In this document: piece after piece, positions 16,800 to 36,974 of the stretch
Layout of the letters: the number at the start of each line of letters is the position of its first letter
Numbering within the stretch: the stretch's first letter is position 1
Source: an uncultured Gammaproteobacteria bacterium
Lineage (GTDB): Bacteria > Pseudomonadota > Gammaproteobacteria > Pseudomonadales > Azotimanducaceae
Assembly: GCA_913043815.1 (NCBI GenBank)
Contig: CAJWNY010000021.1
Span: 1 to 38,767, forward strand
Reading direction: 5' to 3'
Length of the DNA stretch: 38,767 bases
Notes under the pieces: generated by a model
Told to the model about the DNA's origin: nothing
What the model saw: only the letters and a program-made list of their open reading frames with translations
Databases searched by the model: none
Program-made: the position numbers and the translations under genes

Positions 16800-17801
16800 T
16801 TAACCTGTGGCTAATAAATCCAACGCTCTGTCTATCAACGGTTTCATCGACAGCGCGGTGGTTTCCCAAACCTCGTCTTCGCGTTTACCGCGTCTATGCA
16901 AACTCAAGTTTAGACCACTGATAATGGCAAATTTGTAGGCCGCCAATGCTCGGTACCAATTAATGTTTTGTACTTCTTGACCATAAGCATTTTGATACAG
17001 GTCAATCAGCGTATCTGGCGTTAAGAACATTGTACGGTCTGTATTTTCTACCCAAGCTTCCCCATCACTGAAGGTACAAATCCATCCGACATCATTCAAT
17101 GTTGCTCCTACGCCTGTTAATTCCCAGTCTATGAGCGCAAGCAGTTGGGCATCTTTTGATGCAAATAAATTGGCAGTTTGGAAGTCTCCGTGAAAGATGC
17201 CTACTGGCGCGTTTTGCGGCACAGTGTCGAGCAATCTTTGACGCACCGCAGGGACATCTTTTAGCCGCTCTGGTTCTGCGGCCTTGGCATAGAATCTGTC
17301 CCAACGAGTTACATCGTCGGCAAAGGGTACCGGATCGCCCAGATACGGTACTTTGCTAATATCAACTTTGTGTACCGCAGCCAAAGACGACATCGCTTGG
17401 CGACCAAACTCATGAATTTGATCAGCACTGAGATTAGAACCCCAGTCCTCGGCGCCCAAACGCATAACATCGCCTTCTAACCAAGGCACAATAAAATAGG
17501 GACTGCCAAACCACTGCTCATCGTCTCCTGACCATTTTACTGAGCAATGTGGCACGCCGGTACCATCCAACGCATTGAGCACTGCCACCTGCCGCAGCAC
17601 ATCGGCTGTACCTACCCAGTTCACGCCGGGAGGTGGCAAGCGAATAAACCACGAATCTTTCTGCCCTGCATACGCCACACGAAAACCATAGGCAAATCCC
17701 GCATGACCAGGCATGGTAATGACTTCCTGTATTTCTACAGGCGATGAATAACGCGCCTCGCAAAAAGGTATTAGCCGCGCTCTAAGTTCTTCTAACTCCA
17801 T
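16800..17801 (-). CDS. APH-like phosphotransferase (ACAD10/11 kinase-domain type)
   Basis: A 333-residue aminoglycoside-phosphotransferase-fold kinase. The catalytic loop is HGDFQTANLF (His204, Asp206, Asn211) and the metal-binding Asp is in IDWELTG (Asp225). Such proteins in lipid-degrading bacteria resemble the kinase part of human ACAD10 and ACAD11, which act on 4-hydroxyacyl-CoAs; antibiotic resistance is unlikely. It lies 112 bases downstream of an acyl-CoA ligase on the same strand, which supports an acyl-CoA-related role. The N-terminal lobe is short and the usual nucleotide-binding Lys is replaced by the FIRLPPP segment seen in this subgroup. Confidence 0.85.
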   Translation of the reverse strand: MELEELRARLIPFCEARYSSPVEIQEVITMPGHAGFAYGFRVAYAGQKDSWFIRLPPPGVNWVGTADVLRQVAVLNALDGTGVPHCSVKWSGDDEQWFGSPYFIVPWLEGDVMRLGAEDWGSNLSADQIHEFGRQAMSSLAAVHKVDISKVPYLGDPVPFADDVTRWDRFYAKAAEPERLKDVPAVRQRLLDTVPQNAPVGIFHGDFQTANLFASKDAQLLALIDWELTGVGATLNDVGWICTFSDGEAWVENTDRTMFLTPDTLIDLYQNAYGQEVQNINWYRALAAYKFAIISGLNLSLHRRGKREDEVWETTALSMKPLIDRALDLLATG

Positions 17802-17913
17802 ACCCTGCTCCCCAAGAGTTTCCTACCGATCTAGATCACCGACAATGTAAGCCGGTTAGTTTTTACCAATAAGGTAAGCAAAAATGCTCACCCACTTCCG
17901 GACAAAGACGCCT

Positions 17914-19455
17914 TTACTCTGCTGCGTTCTTATCGAATTGATCCCGCAGTACACGCTTAAGTATTTTGCCGCTAGGATTGCGAGGAATCGCGCTAACAAA
18001 CTCAACAGCCTTAGGTTGTTTGAAGCGTGCCAGTTTGCCCTGACAAAATTCCATCACATCTGCCTGCGTAATATTTTCGTCAGTAGCTACAACTATCGCC
18101 AAGGGCGACTCACCCCAGCGCTCACTCTGCTGGCCAATTACCGCAGCTTCGCTGATGCCCGGATGCTCTGATAAAACGCCCTCTATCTCAGCAGGGTAGA
18201 CATTTTCACCGCCGCTGATGATCATGTCTTTGATTCGGTCTTGAATAGAGACAAAACCTTCTTCATCCATAATCGCGATATCACCAGTATGCAGCCATCC
18301 GTTCACAATAGTCTCGGCAGTGGCTTCTGGACGATTCCAATATTCGACCATGACGTGTTCGCCGCGCACCAGAACTTCACCGGCCACGCCAGGAGGACAG
18401 TCATTACCTTTCTCGTCAGCAATCCGTACTTCCGTATGGAAAAAAGCCTTGCCAGTAGACTCTGGTCTTGCAAGCGCATTTTCCGCGTCCATCAGACAAG
18501 TCGGCCCACAAGTTTCTGTCAGTCCATAAACCTGCTGAATGCCAATATTCATATCATGAAAGATCTTCGTCAATGCAGGCGGCACAGGGGCTGCGCCTGT
18601 CATAATCCAGCGCAAGCTAGAAAAATCAAAGCGCTCAAAATTTGGCACTTGCAGCATGGAGCTCAACATTGCTGGTACAGCTAAACCGCTGGTGATTTTC
18701 TCTCGCTCAATGGCCTCCCAGGCGCTCACCGGGTCGAAGGAGCGCATCACCACCGAAGTTACCCCACGGTATACATTCACTGCCAGCGGCGTTAACGCCC
18801 CAACATGAAACATGGGCAGACATGCCAAGTAACGTTCTGGATCGTGATAAATTGCTGTGGCCGAAATGCTCAACAAACCCCAAATAGAAGTGTGGTGGGT
18901 GTGCACAACACCTTTTGGCAATCCCGTAGTGCCTGAGGTATACATGATGTACAGCATATCGTGGTCAGCAGCAGACACGTCGGGCTCATTGGTCGGCGCC
19001 GCATCGCGAAAACCACGATAACTCTCGGCAAAATAGGCCACGTCAACATTGGTCACCTGCAACCATTGCTTGATGTCTGTTTTATCGCCACGGCTATGCA
19101 GTTCCGCCACGGTATCAACAAACTCATTGTCGAAAATCAATCGGCTAGTGCCACTGTCTTTAAGAATAAATTCCAGTTCATCAGGGACCAAGCGCCAGTT
19201 CAGCGGCACAACTACCGCGCCAACTTTCGCAAGGGCATAGTAAGACTCCATAAACTCACTGGAATTCATGAGCAACAAACCCACACGCTCGCCTTTAACA
19301 ACACCCGCTTTAACAAACGCATTTGCCAGTTGATTACAACGCAAGTTCAGCGCTTTAAAGGTAAGCCTTAAACTGCCATCGCTCTCAACATAGGCCTCTC
19401 GATCAGGTGAAAGAAATGCGCGTTTACTCAGAAATAGCCCTAAATTATTTTTCAT
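17914..19455 (-). CDS. Acyl-CoA synthetase (AMP-forming), long-chain/FadD-like
   Basis: A 513-residue ANL-superfamily ligase that would activate a carboxylic acid to its CoA thioester via an acyl-adenylate. The phosphate loop is YTSGTTGLPKG (172-182), followed by YGLTETCGP, WLHTGD and the hinge region. The C-terminal lysine in PRNPSGKILKR is the acylating residue. There is no N-terminal membrane segment. ATG 19455 is preferred because GAG lies eight bases upstream and the product starts as in relatives; a GTG at 19470 would add five residues. The substrate pocket does not tell chain length. Confidence 0.92.
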   Translation of the reverse strand: MKNNLGLFLSKRAFLSPDREAYVESDGSLRLTFKALNLRCNQLANAFVKAGVVKGERVGLLLMNSSEFMESYYALAKVGAVVVPLNWRLVPDELEFILKDSGTSRLIFDNEFVDTVAELHSRGDKTDIKQWLQVTNVDVAYFAESYRGFRDAAPTNEPDVSAADHDMLYIMYTSGTTGLPKGVVHTHHTSIWGLLSISATAIYHDPERYLACLPMFHVGALTPLAVNVYRGVTSVVMRSFDPVSAWEAIEREKITSGLAVPAMLSSMLQVPNFERFDFSSLRWIMTGAAPVPPALTKIFHDMNIGIQQVYGLTETCGPTCLMDAENALARPESTGKAFFHTEVRIADEKGNDCPPGVAGEVLVRGEHVMVEYWNRPEATAETIVNGWLHTGDIAIMDEEGFVSIQDRIKDMIISGGENVYPAEIEGVLSEHPGISEAAVIGQQSERWGESPLAIVVATDENITQADVMEFCQGKLARFKQPKAVEFVSAIPRNPSGKILKRVLRDQFDKNAAE

Positions 19456-19824
19456 TATTTTCTCGTGCACAGGTTTATTTAGATAGCCTATTGTTGACCA
19501 AACTTTTCCTCAATAACAGAGGCTGTGAGCAAGAACCCAACCGAGTTTTTCACAGTCAGAAAATGCTCAAGCGAGCAACGGCAAAGATAATCAAACAACC
19601 GAAAATAGTTTTTGAGGGCGGCTACTTCCCAGATTTAGATGACCAGTTTTGAGGAGTAGCTTGGACCCTACATATGCTGTTCGAGCCCGAGAACCTTTAC
19701 AAGACGCGTGTCAATCCGGGCAAAGCCACCAAAATGCTTGCTATACGGAAGAGGAGTCAGGGGTAGACACATCAAAAATTTCGTGCAACCCTTGTTCACC
19801 CTTTGTACCTGTACAATTATCGCA
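19456..19824. other. Intergenic region between divergent acyl-CoA ligase and MerR gene
   Basis: 369 bases. No supported gene: an 81-codon plus-strand frame (19407-19652) overlaps the ligase start and lacks a ribosome binding site. CTGTGA (19523-19528) and TCACAG (19550-19555) form a 6-bp inverted repeat of unknown meaning on the ligase side. The last 22 bases hold the GTAC palindrome and possible -10 listed separately. Confidence 0.45.
19803..19817 (+). promoter_or_regulatory. GTAC palindrome overlapping a possible -10 box before the MerR gene
   Basis: TTGTAC (19803-19808), CT, GTACAA (19811-19816) is a perfect 6+6 bp inverted repeat. Its right arm overlaps TACAAT (19812-19817), one mismatch from a sigma-70 -10 box. 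No good -35 is visible at normal spacing; TTGTTC sits only 14 bases upstream. The ATG at 19825 is so close that a transcript from this promoter would be leaderless or nearly so. Autoregulation by the adjacent MerR protein is inferred from position and from two related sites downstream. Confidence 0.6.
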
Positions 19825-20832
19825 ATGACGCTTTCAGGCAATACAAACGATTACTACCGCATTGGCAGTGTCGCATCCTTAACGGGCATAGCCGTTGAGC
19901 GCCTACGTGCGTGGGAAAGGCGTTATCAATTCAGCCCTGCCTACAAAGACGGCAAAACTCGCTTCTACAGCAAAGATCAGCTTGAAATACTAAAGAAAAT
20001 TAAACGCTTAATTGATCAGGGGCAGACCATATCTAGCGTTATTAATTTAACCGAAGAGCAACTTGATGCACGTTCTGGCAACGCTGAGAGTGCACCACAG
20101 GTGCAGAATTTGGTCGGTCAGTCACCTAGAATTAGTTTGATTGGCGCTAATTTACTGCAATTAGAACAACGTGTTAGCGAAAATCCACGCTTAGATATTG
20201 TATCCCGCTGGGCCAACTTAGACGCGTTTCTCGGCGAACAAATCAGCTCGCCGGGCGATTTAGACGCACCACAAGTATTAGTACTGCAGCTTCCAGTACT
20301 TGCAGAGCAAGCAATTAGGCAAACTCAGCAGGCTTTGCCTAACACTAAAATCATCACTCTTTATCAGTTTGCGACAGCTAATCAAATCAGCCGTTGCCAA
20401 GAACAACAAGTTTCTACCCTAAAGTGGCCGCTGTCCTGGGCGGAAATAGAATATACCTGCATCAACGAGTTTGGCCTGCCGAGGTTATATGGCGTCAGCG
20501 CACCTCGTCGCTTTAGCGATGAGGAGCTGATTGCCATTGCGGCAGAAGATCACGATCCAAACCAGTGCGCACAGCACCTTGTTGAGCAAATACACCAACT
20601 AAATGCTTTAACCGACTACTTGCAGAGCTGTGCAAGCGAAGAAGAAGTTAAGGAAGCCGGCGACAAGCGCCAGAGCCTTGAGGCCTTGGCACAAACGCGA
20701 ACGGAAACAGCGCAAGCGAGAGCCCAACTCGAAACCGCGCTAGATAGCTTATTAACTGCGACGTACAAACAGCTGCCCGCTGCAACAACTCAGTCTCAGC
20801 CCGTTCGCCCGGACGGTTTTTCTACTCACTAA
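19825..20832 (+). CDS. MerR-family regulator, MlrA/CarA/LitR type without B12 domain
   Basis: 335 residues. The winged helix at about 10-80 has YRIGSVASLTGI followed by RLRAWERRY, the WERRY signature of the MlrA/CarA/CarH/LitR branch rather than metal sensors. Residues 100-250 look like a degenerate alpha/beta sensor domain (RISLIGANLLQLE, QVLVLQLPV, KIITLYQ), but I cannot find the His-containing cobalamin-binding motif of CarH. A Gln/Ala/Glu-rich coiled coil ends the protein. It may belong to the B12-less LitR-like regulators described in Pseudomonas; that is inference. The chosen ATG places the helix-turn-helix near the N-terminus as usual. A GTG at 19708 would add 39 implausible residues, although ATG 19825 lacks a ribosome binding site. 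Confidence 0.82.
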   Translation: MTLSGNTNDYYRIGSVASLTGIAVERLRAWERRYQFSPAYKDGKTRFYSKDQLEILKKIKRLIDQGQTISSVINLTEEQLDARSGNAESAPQVQNLVGQSPRISLIGANLLQLEQRVSENPRLDIVSRWANLDAFLGEQISSPGDLDAPQVLVLQLPVLAEQAIRQTQQALPNTKIITLYQFATANQISRCQEQQVSTLKWPLSWAEIEYTCINEFGLPRLYGVSAPRRFSDEELIAIAAEDHDPNQCAQHLVEQIHQLNALTDYLQSCASEEEVKEAGDKRQSLEALAQTRTETAQARAQLETALDSLLTATYKQLPAATTQSQPVRPDGFSTH

Positions 20833-20849
20833 ACGTTTATTCCATACGT

Positions 20850-20870
20850 TTTGGTTAATATCGAACCAAA
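20850..20870 (+). terminator. Stem-loop after the MerR gene
   Basis: TTTGGTT (20850-20856) pairs with AACCAAA (20864-20870) across a seven-base loop, 17 bases after the MerR stop codon. No T-run follows, so it is at best a weak or Rho-assisted terminator, or an mRNA 3'-end stabiliser. Two TACAAAA heptamers exactly 11 bp apart follow at 20882 and 20893. Confidence 0.4.
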
Positions 20871-20912
20871 CCTAAATAACGTACAAAACCTATACAAAAG
20901 TTCAAATATCTA

Positions 20913-20940
20913 TTGATTTAAGGAATTTGTACTGTACACT
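20913..20940 (+). promoter_or_regulatory. Promoter with GTAC palindrome on its -10 region
   Basis: TTGATT (20913-20918) as -35, a 16-base spacer, then TACACT (20935-20940) as -10; each matches the sigma-70 consensus at four of six positions. A perfect odd palindrome TGTAC-T-GTACA (20928-20938) covers the end of the spacer and most of the -10, where a bound protein would block or remodel RNA polymerase. Transcription would start near 20947, shortly before the structured RNA. The palindrome shares its GTAC arms with the site before the MerR gene. Confidence 0.6.
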
Positions 20941-20946
20941 TTACTG

Positions 20947-21057
20947 CATATTCAAGTTTCAGGCGCGCTCACAACTCACAACACCCTTCCTTACAGTGTC
21001 CTTCCCCCCGAAGTCGAGTTGTTTTCAGACAATTGAGTCTGACGCGCCTTTTTTATT
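20947..21057 (+). ncRNA. Predicted structured small RNA, about 110 nt, with C-rich loop and intrinsic terminator
   Basis: No protein fits here, yet the bases pair in nested fashion. P1 is AGGCGCG (20961-20967) with CGCGCCT (21043-21049). P2 is ACAACTC (20971-20977) with GAGTTGT (21016-21022). P3 is TCAGAC (21025-21030) with GTCTGA (21037-21042). P2 and P3 inside P1 make a three-way junction, and a run of six T plus ATTT follows at once, as in an intrinsic terminator. The 38-base P2 loop holds CCTTCC and TCCTTCCCCCC, complementary to Shine-Dalgarno sequences. A promoter lies just upstream. Boundaries and function are predictions; it matches no RNA family I know. Confidence 0.6.
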
Positions 21058-21070
21058 TAAGTCCTCTAAG

Positions 21071-21095
21071 CCGCCCCGAACCTTGTTCGGGGCGG
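21071..21095. terminator. GC-rich 11-bp hairpin
   Basis: CCGCCCCGAAC (21071-21081) pairs perfectly with GTTCGGGGCGG (21085-21095) around a three-base loop, very stable for its size. No T-run follows on either strand, so it is not a textbook terminator. It could end readthrough from the small RNA, or act as a Rho-linked stop for the minus-strand kinase gene ending at 21469. A weaker CGTTT/AAACG hairpin follows within 10 bases. Confidence 0.45.
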
Positions 21096-21332
21096 GCTGC
21101 GAGCGTTTCTTCTAAACGGCTTCTAGAAGACTGTCGTTAGTACCTAAGCAAAAATAACTTGGGCCGCCAATCTTTTCCCTCACAAGCCTTCAGCATAATC
21201 AGCACGGACAAAACGAATTAACGTTCGATGTTTTTACTTTTAGAAACAACCAGTAATTCCTAACCTCCATCCTAGAGTATCCGAAGTAAAACTGTTGTTT
21301 TGGGTATAGTGTTTCTTAAAAGACTCTAGCAA

Positions 21333-21359
21333 TGTTTGTGTACAATCGTGTACCAAACA
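21333..21359 (+). promoter_or_regulatory. GTAC dyad before the 31-codon ORF
   Basis: TGTTTG (21333-21338) and CAAACA (21354-21359) form the outer arms. Inside are two GTAC cores (21340-21343 and 21350-21353), so the arms match over ten bases with one bulged base. TACAAT (21341-21346) is a possible -10 box. It is the third GTAC-core dyad in 1.6 kb around the MerR gene. Centre spacing differs (2, 1 and 6 bases at the three sites), so binding by one protein to all three is a hypothesis. Confidence 0.5.
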
Positions 21360-21376
21360 ATAGTAGAGGGATAAAA

Positions 21377-21472
21377 ATGCAATTTGGATCAAAACAATTC
21401 TATGACGACTATGAGGCGGCGCACCAGAACTCTGAGGCAGCTAAAGTAAGGTCTGCAGCACCTTACAATTAA
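21377..21472 (+). CDS. Predicted 31-residue small protein
   Basis: A short ORF starting MQFGSKQFYDDYEAAH and ending APYN, hydrophilic and without a membrane segment or recognised motif. Support for it being real: AGAGGG six bases before the ATG, a GTAC dyad and possible -10 in front, and a stop that falls exactly at the end of the convergent kinase gene (TAA at 21470-21472 against the opposite stop at 21469-21471), so it does not intrude on that gene. It is too short for coding statistics to decide. Function unknown; it may be a target or partner of the MerR regulator. Confidence 0.5.
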   Translation: MQFGSKQFYDDYEAAHQNSEAAKVRSAAPYN

Positions 21473-22500
21473 TAGCTCAGAAATTCTAACGCTGCCTCAG
21501 CGCGTAAGGTAATACCTTCTTTCTGAGCATCCAAGTCTACATCGCGATTCTCACCCATAGCTCCCACCAAGTAGCGCTTATAGACACCCTGACCAATTGC
21601 AGCCAAACGCCAGTGAGAGAATGCTCTATAGTAATTAATGTCTGATAAATCTCGTCCAGATGCCTTCGCATATAGGTCAGACAACGTTTCACGGCTACAA
21701 AAACCACCAGCAGCGGTAGGCACTACGTCTTCCGCGCCTTCTCCCGGTAGCACCCAAGAATTAAGCAAATAGCCCACATCGGCCAAAGGATCGCCTAGGG
21801 TACAAAGCTCCCAGTCTAAAACCGCTGCAATTTCACCTTGTCCAACAATCATATTACCTAAACGATAATCACCGTGAACAATGGTAGCGCCCACTTGCTC
21901 GGGCATACGCGCTGCAAGCAGCCTAGTACTTTCATCCATGGCCGGGACTTCGTGAGTCTTGGTGGCTGCCCATTGTTTAGTCCAGCGGTTCATTTGACGC
22001 TGTAGATAGGCCTCTTTACGCCCCAGATCGCCTAAATTAACTTGGTCTGGATCTATATCGTGCAGAGCCGCAAGCACTTCAATAACACTGGCACCCAGCG
22101 TCGCACGTTCGCTCACCGGAATAGCTTGAGTCACTTCTGCGTCATGCAAAACCGGCCCGCTGACATAGTCCATCACATAAAAAGGCGCATCGTTCACGGA
22201 AACGTCCGTACATAAACCAATGGTTTGCGCCACTGGCACCGAGGAGTTATTCAGCGCTGAAATGATTTTATGCTCGCGCCCCATGTCGTGGGCACTTTCT
22301 AGAACATGACCCAGCGGAGGGCGGCGCAGCACGTAAATGCGCCCATTGGCATCTTTCACGCCATAGGTCAGGTTCGAGTGCCCACCGGCAATGAGGTCAA
22401 ACTCTAAAGGCAACGCCAAATCTGCAATATGCGATTGCATCCACGCCGTAACCGACGCCACATTAATGCCCTGAATATCCCCTGCGCTTGCTACAGCCAT
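21469..22500 (-). CDS. APH-like phosphotransferase (ACAD10/11 kinase-domain type)
   Basis: A 343-residue kinase-fold protein. A Gly-rich GGHSNLTYGV loop and YVLRRPPLGHVL, typical of the ACAD11-like group, lie in the N-lobe. The catalytic loop is HGDYRLGNMIV (His209, Asp211, Asn216) and the metal site is in LDWELCTLGDPLADVGY (Asp229). The closest known role is phosphorylation in 4-hydroxy fatty-acid catabolism, as in human ACAD10/11 and bacterial relatives. It is clearly a paralogue type of the kinase at 16800 but much closer to the canonical family. GGGAGAG precedes ATG 22500. It ends tail to tail with the 31-codon ORF, overlapping by two stop-codon bases and one flanking base. Confidence 0.9.
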   Translation of the reverse strand: MAVASAGDIQGINVASVTAWMQSHIADLALPLEFDLIAGGHSNLTYGVKDANGRIYVLRRPPLGHVLESAHDMGREHKIISALNNSSVPVAQTIGLCTDVSVNDAPFYVMDYVSGPVLHDAEVTQAIPVSERATLGASVIEVLAALHDIDPDQVNLGDLGRKEAYLQRQMNRWTKQWAATKTHEVPAMDESTRLLAARMPEQVGATIVHGDYRLGNMIVGQGEIAAVLDWELCTLGDPLADVGYLLNSWVLPGEGAEDVVPTAAGGFCSRETLSDLYAKASGRDLSDINYYRAFSHWRLAAIGQGVYKRYLVGAMGENRDVDLDAQKEGITLRAEAALEFLSY

Positions 22501-29388: not shown

Positions 29389-29892
29389 TTATGCCTCCTG
29401 TGGATTGTTTGCTTTTGGATCGAAAACACCGACAACGCTTTCACCAGCTGCGCGCTTAATGGCCTTGCGAATACGACCGTACATACCGCAGCGGCAGATA
29501 TTACCGGACATAGCAGCGTTTATTGCAGCGTCATCGGGGTTAGAATTTTGTTCGAGTAATGCAACCGCTGACATAATTTGCCCAGATTGACAGTAACCAC
29601 ACTGGGGGACCTGCTCCGCAACCCAAGCCTCTTGCACTGGGTGCATTGCACCTTCAGTTGACGCAAGGCCTTCAATCGTCGTCACTGCTGAGCCTTGGGC
29701 TGCTGCTAACGGGGTAACGCAAGAACGAATGGCTTGGCCATTAAGATGTACGGTACATGCACCGCACTGAGCCACACCGCAACCAAACTTAGTACCGGTT
29801 AACTGTAAGTTTTCTCTTAATGCCCAAAGCAATGGCGTATTTGAGTCGATATCCAAAGACTGCTCTGAACCGTTAAGCGTAAATGTGATCAT
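29389..29892 (-). CDS. 2Fe-2S subunit of the molybdenum hydroxylase (IorA-like)
   Basis: 167 residues with two 2Fe-2S clusters. Plant-type ferredoxin ligands are Cys38, Cys43, Cys46 (CGVAQCGAC) and Cys58; the helical domain ligands are Cys98, Cys101 (CGYC) and Cys133, Cys135 (CRC). It passes electrons from the molybdenum subunit to an external acceptor and is probably carried through the Tat system with it. Its TAA stop is one base before the ATG of the large subunit, and the GGAGG for that gene lies inside this coding end, so the two are translationally coupled. AGGAGCTTCC precedes its ATG. Confidence 0.93.
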
Positions 29893-36330: not shown

Positions 36331-36974
36331 TAGACTGTGTAGCGCGCTTCCAAACCGGCGTATAACTTGTCCGACAGACCTTCAACTACGTCAGACAACT
36401 CACCCAACAATTCAACCAAGTGTTCGTTGTCTTCGCGGCCCTGCCAAAGTTTGCGGTACTCACCGCTCTTGTAGCCATTGTTTTGGCGGAACCGGTTAAG
36501 AATATTTTTACCAATGTACATGCCGTACAACTCTGGCAAGTCCATAGGCAAGCTAGCCATCGCCAACTTGAAAGACGATAAGTCAAAAGACCGAGTAGCC
36601 AAGCAGGTTGCTGCCAGTTGCTCAATAGATAGACGAAAATTCTCTGCACGCACTTCTTCGGATGCATTGGTGTTGGCGGCTTCAACTGCGCTGAGTTGGG
36701 CGGCAATGGCTTCATCAATTGGCCCGACACGTAACATTTCACTGAGACCAAAATGCCAAATATCCACTAGTTCTAACTTTACTTGAGCTAAATCTGGGCT
36801 TTGTTTTTTCCACCACTTCCACCCAAAGTGGTCGAGCATTTCTGCACACTCAACCCATACCGCTCGATAATATTGATGGCTTTGATTGCGCCATTGCGGA
36901 TGTACTAAAGCATTATGCTCATCTTGCATTTGCGCCATGGTATGCAACATTGCTAATGCATTTTCTGTCGACAT
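36330..36974 (-). CDS. All-alpha dimeric dUTPase-like protein
   Basis: 214 residues, mainly helical, of the MazG/dUTPase-2 superfamily. The metal site ExxE...ExxD is visible as Glu42-Cys-Ala-Glu45 and Glu68-Leu-Val-Asp71, and the intervening DHFGWKWWKKQ matches the conserved block of dimeric dUTPases of Campylobacter and kinetoplastids. It would hydrolyse dUTP (and dUDP) to dUMP. This type is unrelated to the trimeric Dut. GGGAAG precedes ATG 36974. It heads a minus-strand operon with the Nudix gene and perhaps the LLM oxidoreductase. Confidence 0.87.
   Translation of the reverse strand: MSTENALAMLHTMAQMQDEHNALVHPQWRNQSHQYYRAVWVECAEMLDHFGWKWWKKQSPDLAQVKLELVDIWHFGLSEMLRVGPIDEAIAAQLSAVEAANTNASEEVRAENFRLSIEQLAATCLATRSFDLSSFKLAMASLPMDLPELYGMYIGKNILNRFRQNNGYKSGEYRKLWQGREDNEHLVELLGELSDVVEGLSDKLYAGLEARYTV

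Follow-up and report, generated by a model that had tools for sequence, protein, structure and literature searches.

A small RNA gene family adjoining a CarH-type MerR regulator gene, probably a dedicated regulatory pair, in uncultured marine Gammaproteobacteria

Introduction

Do a MerR-family regulator gene and the structured RNA predicted just downstream of it form a regulatory circuit of their own? The question arises from contig CAJWNY010000021.1 (C21; 38,767 nucleotides [nt], hereafter the window), which belongs to an incomplete 2.85-Mb genome of an uncultured marine gammaproteobacterium. A preliminary description of this DNA had linked the regulator, the RNA and a 31-codon open reading frame (ORF) through three GTAC dyads, and had proposed that all of them are under common control. 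After comparison with related genomes, common control is well supported for the MerR gene and the RNA, given their order, their co-presence and the half-sites at both promoters; it falls for the microprotein and the third dyad. Our reading is that MerR and the RNA probably form a dedicated pair, in which MerR would repress both itself and the RNA, and the RNA would pair with ribosome-binding sites. Of this reading, sequence comparison shows that the RNA is a folded gene with its own promoter, that the half-sites are conserved, and that the two genes occur and are lost together.

The named relatives are metagenome-assembled genomes and single-cell genomes labeled K189A clade, OM182, HTCC2089, Pseudomonadales or plain Gammaproteobacteria. 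Two sets of loci were used (L001-L059 and L060-L135), which overlap in genomes, and counts from the two are not additive. Protein sets comprised 26 of 30, 57 of 77 and 48 of 57 sequences, and the MerR promoter counts cover 71 loci, 6 of 77 having been dropped because the gene was partial or unrelated or lay near a contig start. The RNAalifold alignment holds 27 of 28 RNAs, one with many N being left out, and the duplex tests took in 37, 41 and 37 of 69 RNA loci. Coordinates of the features are collected in Table 1.

Results and Discussion

A structured RNA gene directly follows the MerR gene

The RNA had been predicted, and the prediction is borne out: the stretch folds at −28.9 kcal/mol (z = −4.53) and belongs to a covarying family. 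When the region was searched against DNA, 28 of 58 genomes (its own included) proved to carry it. RNAalifold folded the 27 sequences into three helices, in which 7 of 19 pairs are compensated on a MAFFT alignment that was not fitted to structure. The covariance model R1 matches the window at 20939-21054 (105.4 bits) and 68 of the 76 named MerR loci, once in each, on the same strand and directly after MerR; adjacency of the two genes is conserved to this extent. All but one of these 68 matches reach E ≤ 1.6 × 10−8, with L111 at just 0.026, and the gap from the MerR stop to the RNA is 47-205 nt (median 81). Among the eight misses, L086, L124, L127 and L131 have at most 107 nt of downstream sequence, L130, L132 and L133 form a side branch with another downstream stretch, and L135 is a Solirubrobacterales record matched over 61 residues.

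In a 69-row alignment fitted to the model, 98.0% of cells were paired, against 86.1% in shuffles and 30-51% with slid partners, and both-side changes occurred in 13 of 19 pairs, against 8.4 and 1-4, respectively. Coding potential was not apparent, as no start column had a common stop over most rows. At the gathering score, Rfam 15 gave no match in the window, nor in L061, L085, L130 or L133; the best match in a 701-base stretch was a clustered regularly interspaced short palindromic repeat (CRISPR; E = 3.2) lying outside the RNA. A literature search, mostly at the level of abstracts, turned up no mention of this RNA or of any small RNA from the clade. We found the RNA in 32 of 40 same-genus genomes and, under stricter filters, in 7 of 293 genomes across the order. 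Since all seven fall in the window's family, the RNA family looks confined to one lineage. By these comparisons, the RNA of about 110 nt is a real gene family with its own promoter, a three-helix fold and a terminator.

Table 1. Features of the MerR-RNA locus, in window coordinates unless a locus is named.
Feature	Position	Strand	Remarks
Palindrome TTGTACCTGTACAA before the MerR start; likely autoregulatory site (candidate)	19803..19816	.	TTGTAC-CT-GTACAA, perfect
MerR-family regulator, 335 amino acids	19825..20832	+	Pfam MerR_1 1.9e-14; PDB CarH helix-turn-helix; structure models
Tandem half-sites ACGTACAA, CTATACAA, 11 bp apart, upstream of the RNA promoter	20879..20897	+	
RNA −35 box TTGATT	20913..20918	+	
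Dyad TGTACTGTACA overlapping the −10 box	20928..20938	.	TGTAC-T-GTACA
RNA −10-like box TACACT	20935-20940	+	16 nt after TTGATT
Small RNA gene, ~110 nt (putative start)	20946..21054	+	Fold, covariance model, covariation
RNA helix P1	20962-20967/21043-21048	+	
RNA helix P2	20971-20977/21016-21022	+	
C/U-rich loop CCCUUCCUUACAGUGUCCUUCCCCCC, putative target-pairing region	20984..21009	+	Complementary to Shine-Dalgarno-like sequence
RNA terminator stem P3	21025-21030/21037-21042	+	
RNA U-run	21049-21054	+	
Third GTAC dyad	21340-21353		GTAC-N6-GTAC
31-codon ORF	21377-21469		
Larger conserved stretch of the side branch	L130:4853-5300, L132:4859-5300, L133:4853-5300		After the MerR gene

Half-sites recur at both promoters

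Two palindromes of the preliminary description, the perfect one before MerR and the TGTAC-T-GTACA form on the −10 box before the RNA, are where it placed them. In relatives, the palindrome form TTGTACCTGTACA lies upstream of MerR at just 8 of 71 loci, and exact TGTACA occurs within 90 nt upstream at 52 of 71 (mean 1.06 per locus vs. 0.018 in shuffled sequence). Within 120 nt of the start, it precedes MerR at 40 of 49 loci and the divergent acyl-CoA synthetase at 1 of 49. At the RNA promoter, the top 12-mer of the −10 region, TTGTACTGTACA, is present at 45 of 69 loci, or 60 of 69 with up to one mismatch. The −35 box is TTGACA at 41 of 69, with 14-17 nt to TACANN; because 27 loci with TACATAAT have a better −10 box, CATAAT, two bases on, the working spacer is probably about 16-17 nt. 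Further upstream, pairs of CTGTACAA-like sites (at least 6 of 8 letters) stand 11 bp apart at 45 of 69 loci, where shuffled sequence gave a mean of 0.085 and a maximum of 2. Every other spacing between 6 and 21 stays at two loci or fewer, and the spacing of 18 that corresponds to TGTACA-N12-TGTACA accounts for 2 of 69.

It is important to note that the letters of a dyad prove little by themselves, because the 1-bp-spaced form occurs at 3 places in the 2.85 Mb, near the count for a reversed control pattern (2); conserved position is what counts. The window holds four matches to TGTACN{0,8}GTACA against 0.17 expected, two of them (29747 and 36515) inside ORFs. These two dyads, at 29747-29757 in a 2Fe-2S protein gene and 36515-36529 in a dUTPase-like gene, look like chance. 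The conservation of half-sites at the MerR and RNA promoters alike, together with the conserved gene order and the shared presence or absence, makes common control of both well supported by comparison.

A wider regulon was sought with TTGTACNGTACA, which occurs at 43 distinct places in 40 genomes of the genus: 28 are RNA promoters and 15 lie elsewhere. We opened 7 of the 15: 6 fall within a reading frame, and the seventh, in G028, lies between frames. As the places opened were mostly of the former kind, we rejected a wider regulon on this motif. Two of 40 genomes contain the strict form CTGTACA-N4-CTGTACA; site pairs usually carry a change, which makes this a weak test.

The same positions bear on the direction of control. 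Many MerR-family proteins are transcription activators, and the half-site pairs lie upstream of the −35 box, a place suited to activators; MerR might activate the RNA from these 11-bp repeats and use the −10 dyad for tuning. We consider this unlikely. The dyad lies over the −10 box, the spacer is probably shorter than the 19-20 nt of MerR-activated promoters, and the −35 box is commonly TTGACA, so the RNA promoter should need no help. Operators of CarH and of class II LitR, as outlined in PMC9304148 and PMC9758184, cover or flank promoter boxes and repress. We favor repression because a promoter with good boxes carries a dyad over its −10.

The pair outlasts its surroundings

Among 37 same-genus genomes, 29 have both MerR and the RNA, 2 have MerR only, none has the RNA only and 6 have neither (Fisher P = 1.2 × 10−5, kinship uncorrected). 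Exceptions are G027, probably the same as L086, whose contig ends 50 nt after MerR, and G014, which keeps the dyad and is probably L111 with its weak RNA match. Homologues with at least 50% identity to the divergent acyl-CoA synthetase are present at 54 of 76 loci, and 53 of 76 have one of the downstream kinase-like gene. At 36 of 68 loci, no more than 500 nt separate the RNA from the convergent kinase-like gene; at 17 this gene is further away, and the remaining 15 have no homologue of at least 50% identity in the locus. At L076, L082, L084, L108 and L129, the RNA is present with none of the four neighbors. Thus, the MerR-RNA pair outlasts its surroundings, since the next gene moves or vanishes while the pair stays adjacent; synteny is part of the story behind their co-presence.

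This arrangement also bears on whether the element, instead of being a free small RNA, serves a downstream gene as its leader or attenuator. It does end in an intrinsic terminator, and another gene may follow at the 32 of 68 loci where the convergent gene does not stand within 500 nt. In the window, however, the next gene after the RNA (21469-22500, minus strand) is convergent, as it is at the 36 relatives' loci with this gene close by, and the RNA cannot lead a gene that runs opposite to it. A leader is very unlikely.

In the window, the pair is flanked by an AMP-binding acyl-CoA synthetase gene and two genes for kinase-like proteins of the APH fold (16800-19470 and 21469-22500). The homologues of the synthetase and of the downstream kinase are a hint that the circuit lies near acyl-CoA metabolism.

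MerR combines a CarH-type DNA-binding domain with a receiver-like domain

The predicted layout of MerR is a CarH-type helix-turn-helix (HTH) at residues 11-77, a receiver-like alpha/beta domain at about 102-216 and C-terminal helices at 232-316. The label MlrA/CarA/LitR-type, given in the preliminary description, is apt for the HTH (CarH/MlrA-type) and does not extend beyond it, where we see no B12 domain and a receiver-like effector. In the PDB, the CarH HTH is the best match by profile search (E = 2.1 × 10−12 over the MerR HTH) and is among the best two by single sequence. The NCBIfam CarH model covers the HTH at 45.2 bits; the window protein misses the cut-offs of the full-length CarH model (400 bits) and of the full-length MlrA model (36.2 vs. 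417 bits).

The full-length structure model (predicted local distance difference test score [pLDDT] 85.2, predicted template-modeling [TM] score [pTM] 0.50) runs from the HTH through one short helix and the alpha/beta domain to long C-terminal helices; modeled alone, the alpha/beta domain reached pLDDT 86.0 and pTM 0.80. In Foldseek, the full-length model had CarH on top (E = 2.9 × 10−6, with TM-scores of just about 0.2). For the alpha/beta domain, the best 50 of 1318 matches (E ≤ 10) were CpaE, receiver and related domains, with a top E of 5.7 × 10−5 and TM-scores mostly about 0.6-0.7 in those 50.

Over 57 MerR members, Pfam gave matches to 12 families (E ≤ 0.05, complete list), none of them a B12-binding model, and the B12-binding_2 four-helix bundle had no Pfam match after the HTH, where the structure model has its single helix. 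By inspection, the phospho-acceptor Asp of receivers is absent at the end of strand 3, which leads into QLPVL; Q155, P157 and V158 are invariant across 26 MerR sequences. Because this Asp is missing, the effector domain is a pseudo-receiver at most. From the models, we call MerR a CarH-type HTH with a putative pseudo-receiver-like effector domain and assign no signal to it, a label chosen because of the missing B12 Pfam match, the receiver-like fold and the lost phospho-acceptor. We set aside light or B12 sensing by MerR, as the Pfam scan of members detected no B12 domain, and rejected a link to defence, as PADLOC mad1 matches only the MerR HTH.

A second MerR is encoded in G000 (contig C18:21993-22862), with a match over residues 8-307 at 24% identity. 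Weak long matches like this one occur in many same-genus genomes, including G003, G022, G024 and G033, which have neither the main MerR nor the RNA.

A putative circuit and its C-rich effector loop

In the circuit that we propose, MerR would bind TGTACA half-sites via its CarH-type HTH and repress its own gene. It would also sit on the RNA −10 region and the upstream 11-bp repeats, silencing an otherwise strong promoter, until a signal on the receiver-like C-terminal domain freed it and a burst of RNA followed. The RNA, probably with Hfq (whose gene is encoded in the genome), would present a long loop, rich in C and set among three stable helices, which would pair with the ribosome-binding sites of target mRNAs, so that translation would drop. 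What we infer here is that MerR binds, that it represses and does not activate, that a signal releases it, that the RNA depends on Hfq and how the RNA acts.

Across 69 RNAs, the letters of the large loop that vary least fall in this C/U-rich region. Its majority letters are approximately CAGUCCUCCCUUUCAAGUGUCCUUCCCCCAGAAG, with stretches complementary to the Shine-Dalgarno sequence.

Several results weigh against this circuit. Duplex tests against shuffled loops at the starts of the four neighboring genes gave mean z scores of −0.46 (n = 28), 0.17 (n = 26), −0.50 (n = 37) and 0.18 (n = 37), with no target among them, and the seed GGGGAAGGAC before ATG has no match in the window's own genome. 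In the 69-row alignment, further pair types numbered 26 vs. 24.1 in shuffles, and 80 of 500 shuffles reached 26. Three of the six genomes without MerR and RNA are just 58-80% complete, and locus counts are not independent, because the species are related. Finally, the upstream repeats could serve as an activator site.

At individual loci, duplex z scores fell below −1.65 for 6 of 28 upstream kinase-like genes (L101 at −4.10), 2 of 26 downstream kinase-like genes, 8% of 37 acyl-CoA synthetase starts and 14% of 37 MerR starts; for the upstream kinase-like gene as a target, this is at most a faint hint. Across 40 genomes, the seed matched before ATG 16 times in 10 genomes, against 3 for a reversed control, an excess that we discount because start sites favor such letters anyway. 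The targets probably lie outside the four neighboring genes.

An alternative is an RNA that works through its structure or through a bound protein, such as a sponge for an RNA-binding protein, with the C-rich loop as the protein site. Its helices are strongly conserved, and neither the duplex nor the seed tests found an mRNA target, both of which fit such a role. However, an unpaired C-rich stretch complementary to the Shine-Dalgarno sequence, such as the long CCUCC/CCUUCC here, is the usual mark of pairing regulators, and GGA motifs are rare in the RNAs (mean 0.29 per RNA), which argues against a CsrA sponge. We regard a structural role as rather unlikely and prefer pairing with ribosome-binding sites.

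With this pair, little-studied marine bacteria gain a small RNA family that Rfam 15 lacks and a regulator that is likely dedicated to it. The compact and conserved operator, RNA and regulator make it feasible to reconstruct the circuit in a laboratory strain and to look directly for its signal and targets.

The third dyad and the short ORF are not conserved

The third dyad and the 31-codon ORF are both present as described, and we rejected them as parts of the module, as neither is conserved. The ORF had no match in 57 other genomes (E ≤ 0.001) and none in the 76 named loci at E ≤ 1 × 10−5 (loose best E = 1.1). The stretch with dyad and ORF is missing in the four relatives closest by MerR identity, where the coding end of the convergent gene lies 63-65 nt after the RNA, compared with about 418 nt in the window. 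Of the three dyads expected beside MerR in relatives, the RNA dyad and TGTACA at MerR recur there and the third does not. A circuit of the whole set, with the microprotein as a recent addition in this species, has the existence of the ORF and the GTAC-N6-GTAC element on its side; given the missing matches and the absence of the stretch from close relatives, we think it most improbable.

Between the RNA terminator and the convergent gene (21065-21465), the window has about 350 bp more than the four closest relatives. The part at 21095-21470 has no second copy in the genome.

A side branch with a different downstream stretch

In L130, L132 and L133, MerR is about 30% identical, R1 finds no RNA, and the TGTACAGTACA dyad is kept after the MerR stop. 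The stretch after this dyad is conserved among the three loci (466 columns, mean identity 81%) and is predicted to fold, the fold of one of the three being just modestly better than shuffles (z = −1.96). A second RNA family may occupy the same slot, a reading that we leave at "may" because three sequences are too few.

A bolder interpretation would combine these elements: a CarH-type MerR in which a pseudo-receiver has replaced the B12 photosensor, with a regulon of itself and one RNA, and with a different, larger structured RNA in the slot of L130, L132 and L133. We offer it tentatively, as possible but doubtful in its entirety. If the regulon has indeed shrunk to MerR and the RNA, the anti-Shine-Dalgarno loop would be the sole effector of the signal.

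Comparison with known systems

CarH operators are tandem 11-bp repeats of the form nnnnTnnACAn, as outlined in PMC9304148, and the 11-bp repeats of the RNA promoter fit the TnnACA operator at the 45 loci that carry them. The best PDB match of the HTH and the top Foldseek match of the full-length model add to the likeness to CarH and class I LitR. Unlike CarH, MerR has no B12-binding Pfam match among its members, carries a receiver-like effector after one short helix where CarH has a four-helix bundle, and has a small RNA as its probable output where CarH has carotenoid genes.

Class II LitR proteins (PplR and PmlR2 of Pseudomonas) share the CarH-like HTH, TGTACA half-sites and repression, and are thought not to bind B12, according to the account in PMC9758184. 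They keep the B12-binding_2 four-helix bundle, which we did not detect in MerR by Pfam, and their half-sites are spaced by N12 (PMC9758184), whereas ours recur at 11 bp per repeat or as overlapping dyads. Of the likeness to LitR sites noted in the preliminary description, the TGTACA half-sites stand, and the spacing fits CarH 11-bp repeats, not the class II N12. In the pair, DNA recognition of the CarH/LitR kind would have an RNA as its output.

In OxyR-OxyS, GcvA-GcvB and SgrR-SgrS, the gene of a transcription factor likewise stands beside a small RNA gene under its control. The MerR-RNA pair differs from them in its protein family, its same-strand order and its unrelated RNA, and the MerR regulon, by motif search, looks limited to the pair. 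RoxS and others are C-rich, anti-Shine-Dalgarno small RNAs, and the unpaired C-rich loops complementary to ribosome-binding sites are a likeness to them; the MerR-linked RNA differs in having no Rfam match and a three-helix fold with one large loop. Judged by sequence, the MerR-RNA pair is a variant within the known type of a regulator with a neighboring small RNA.

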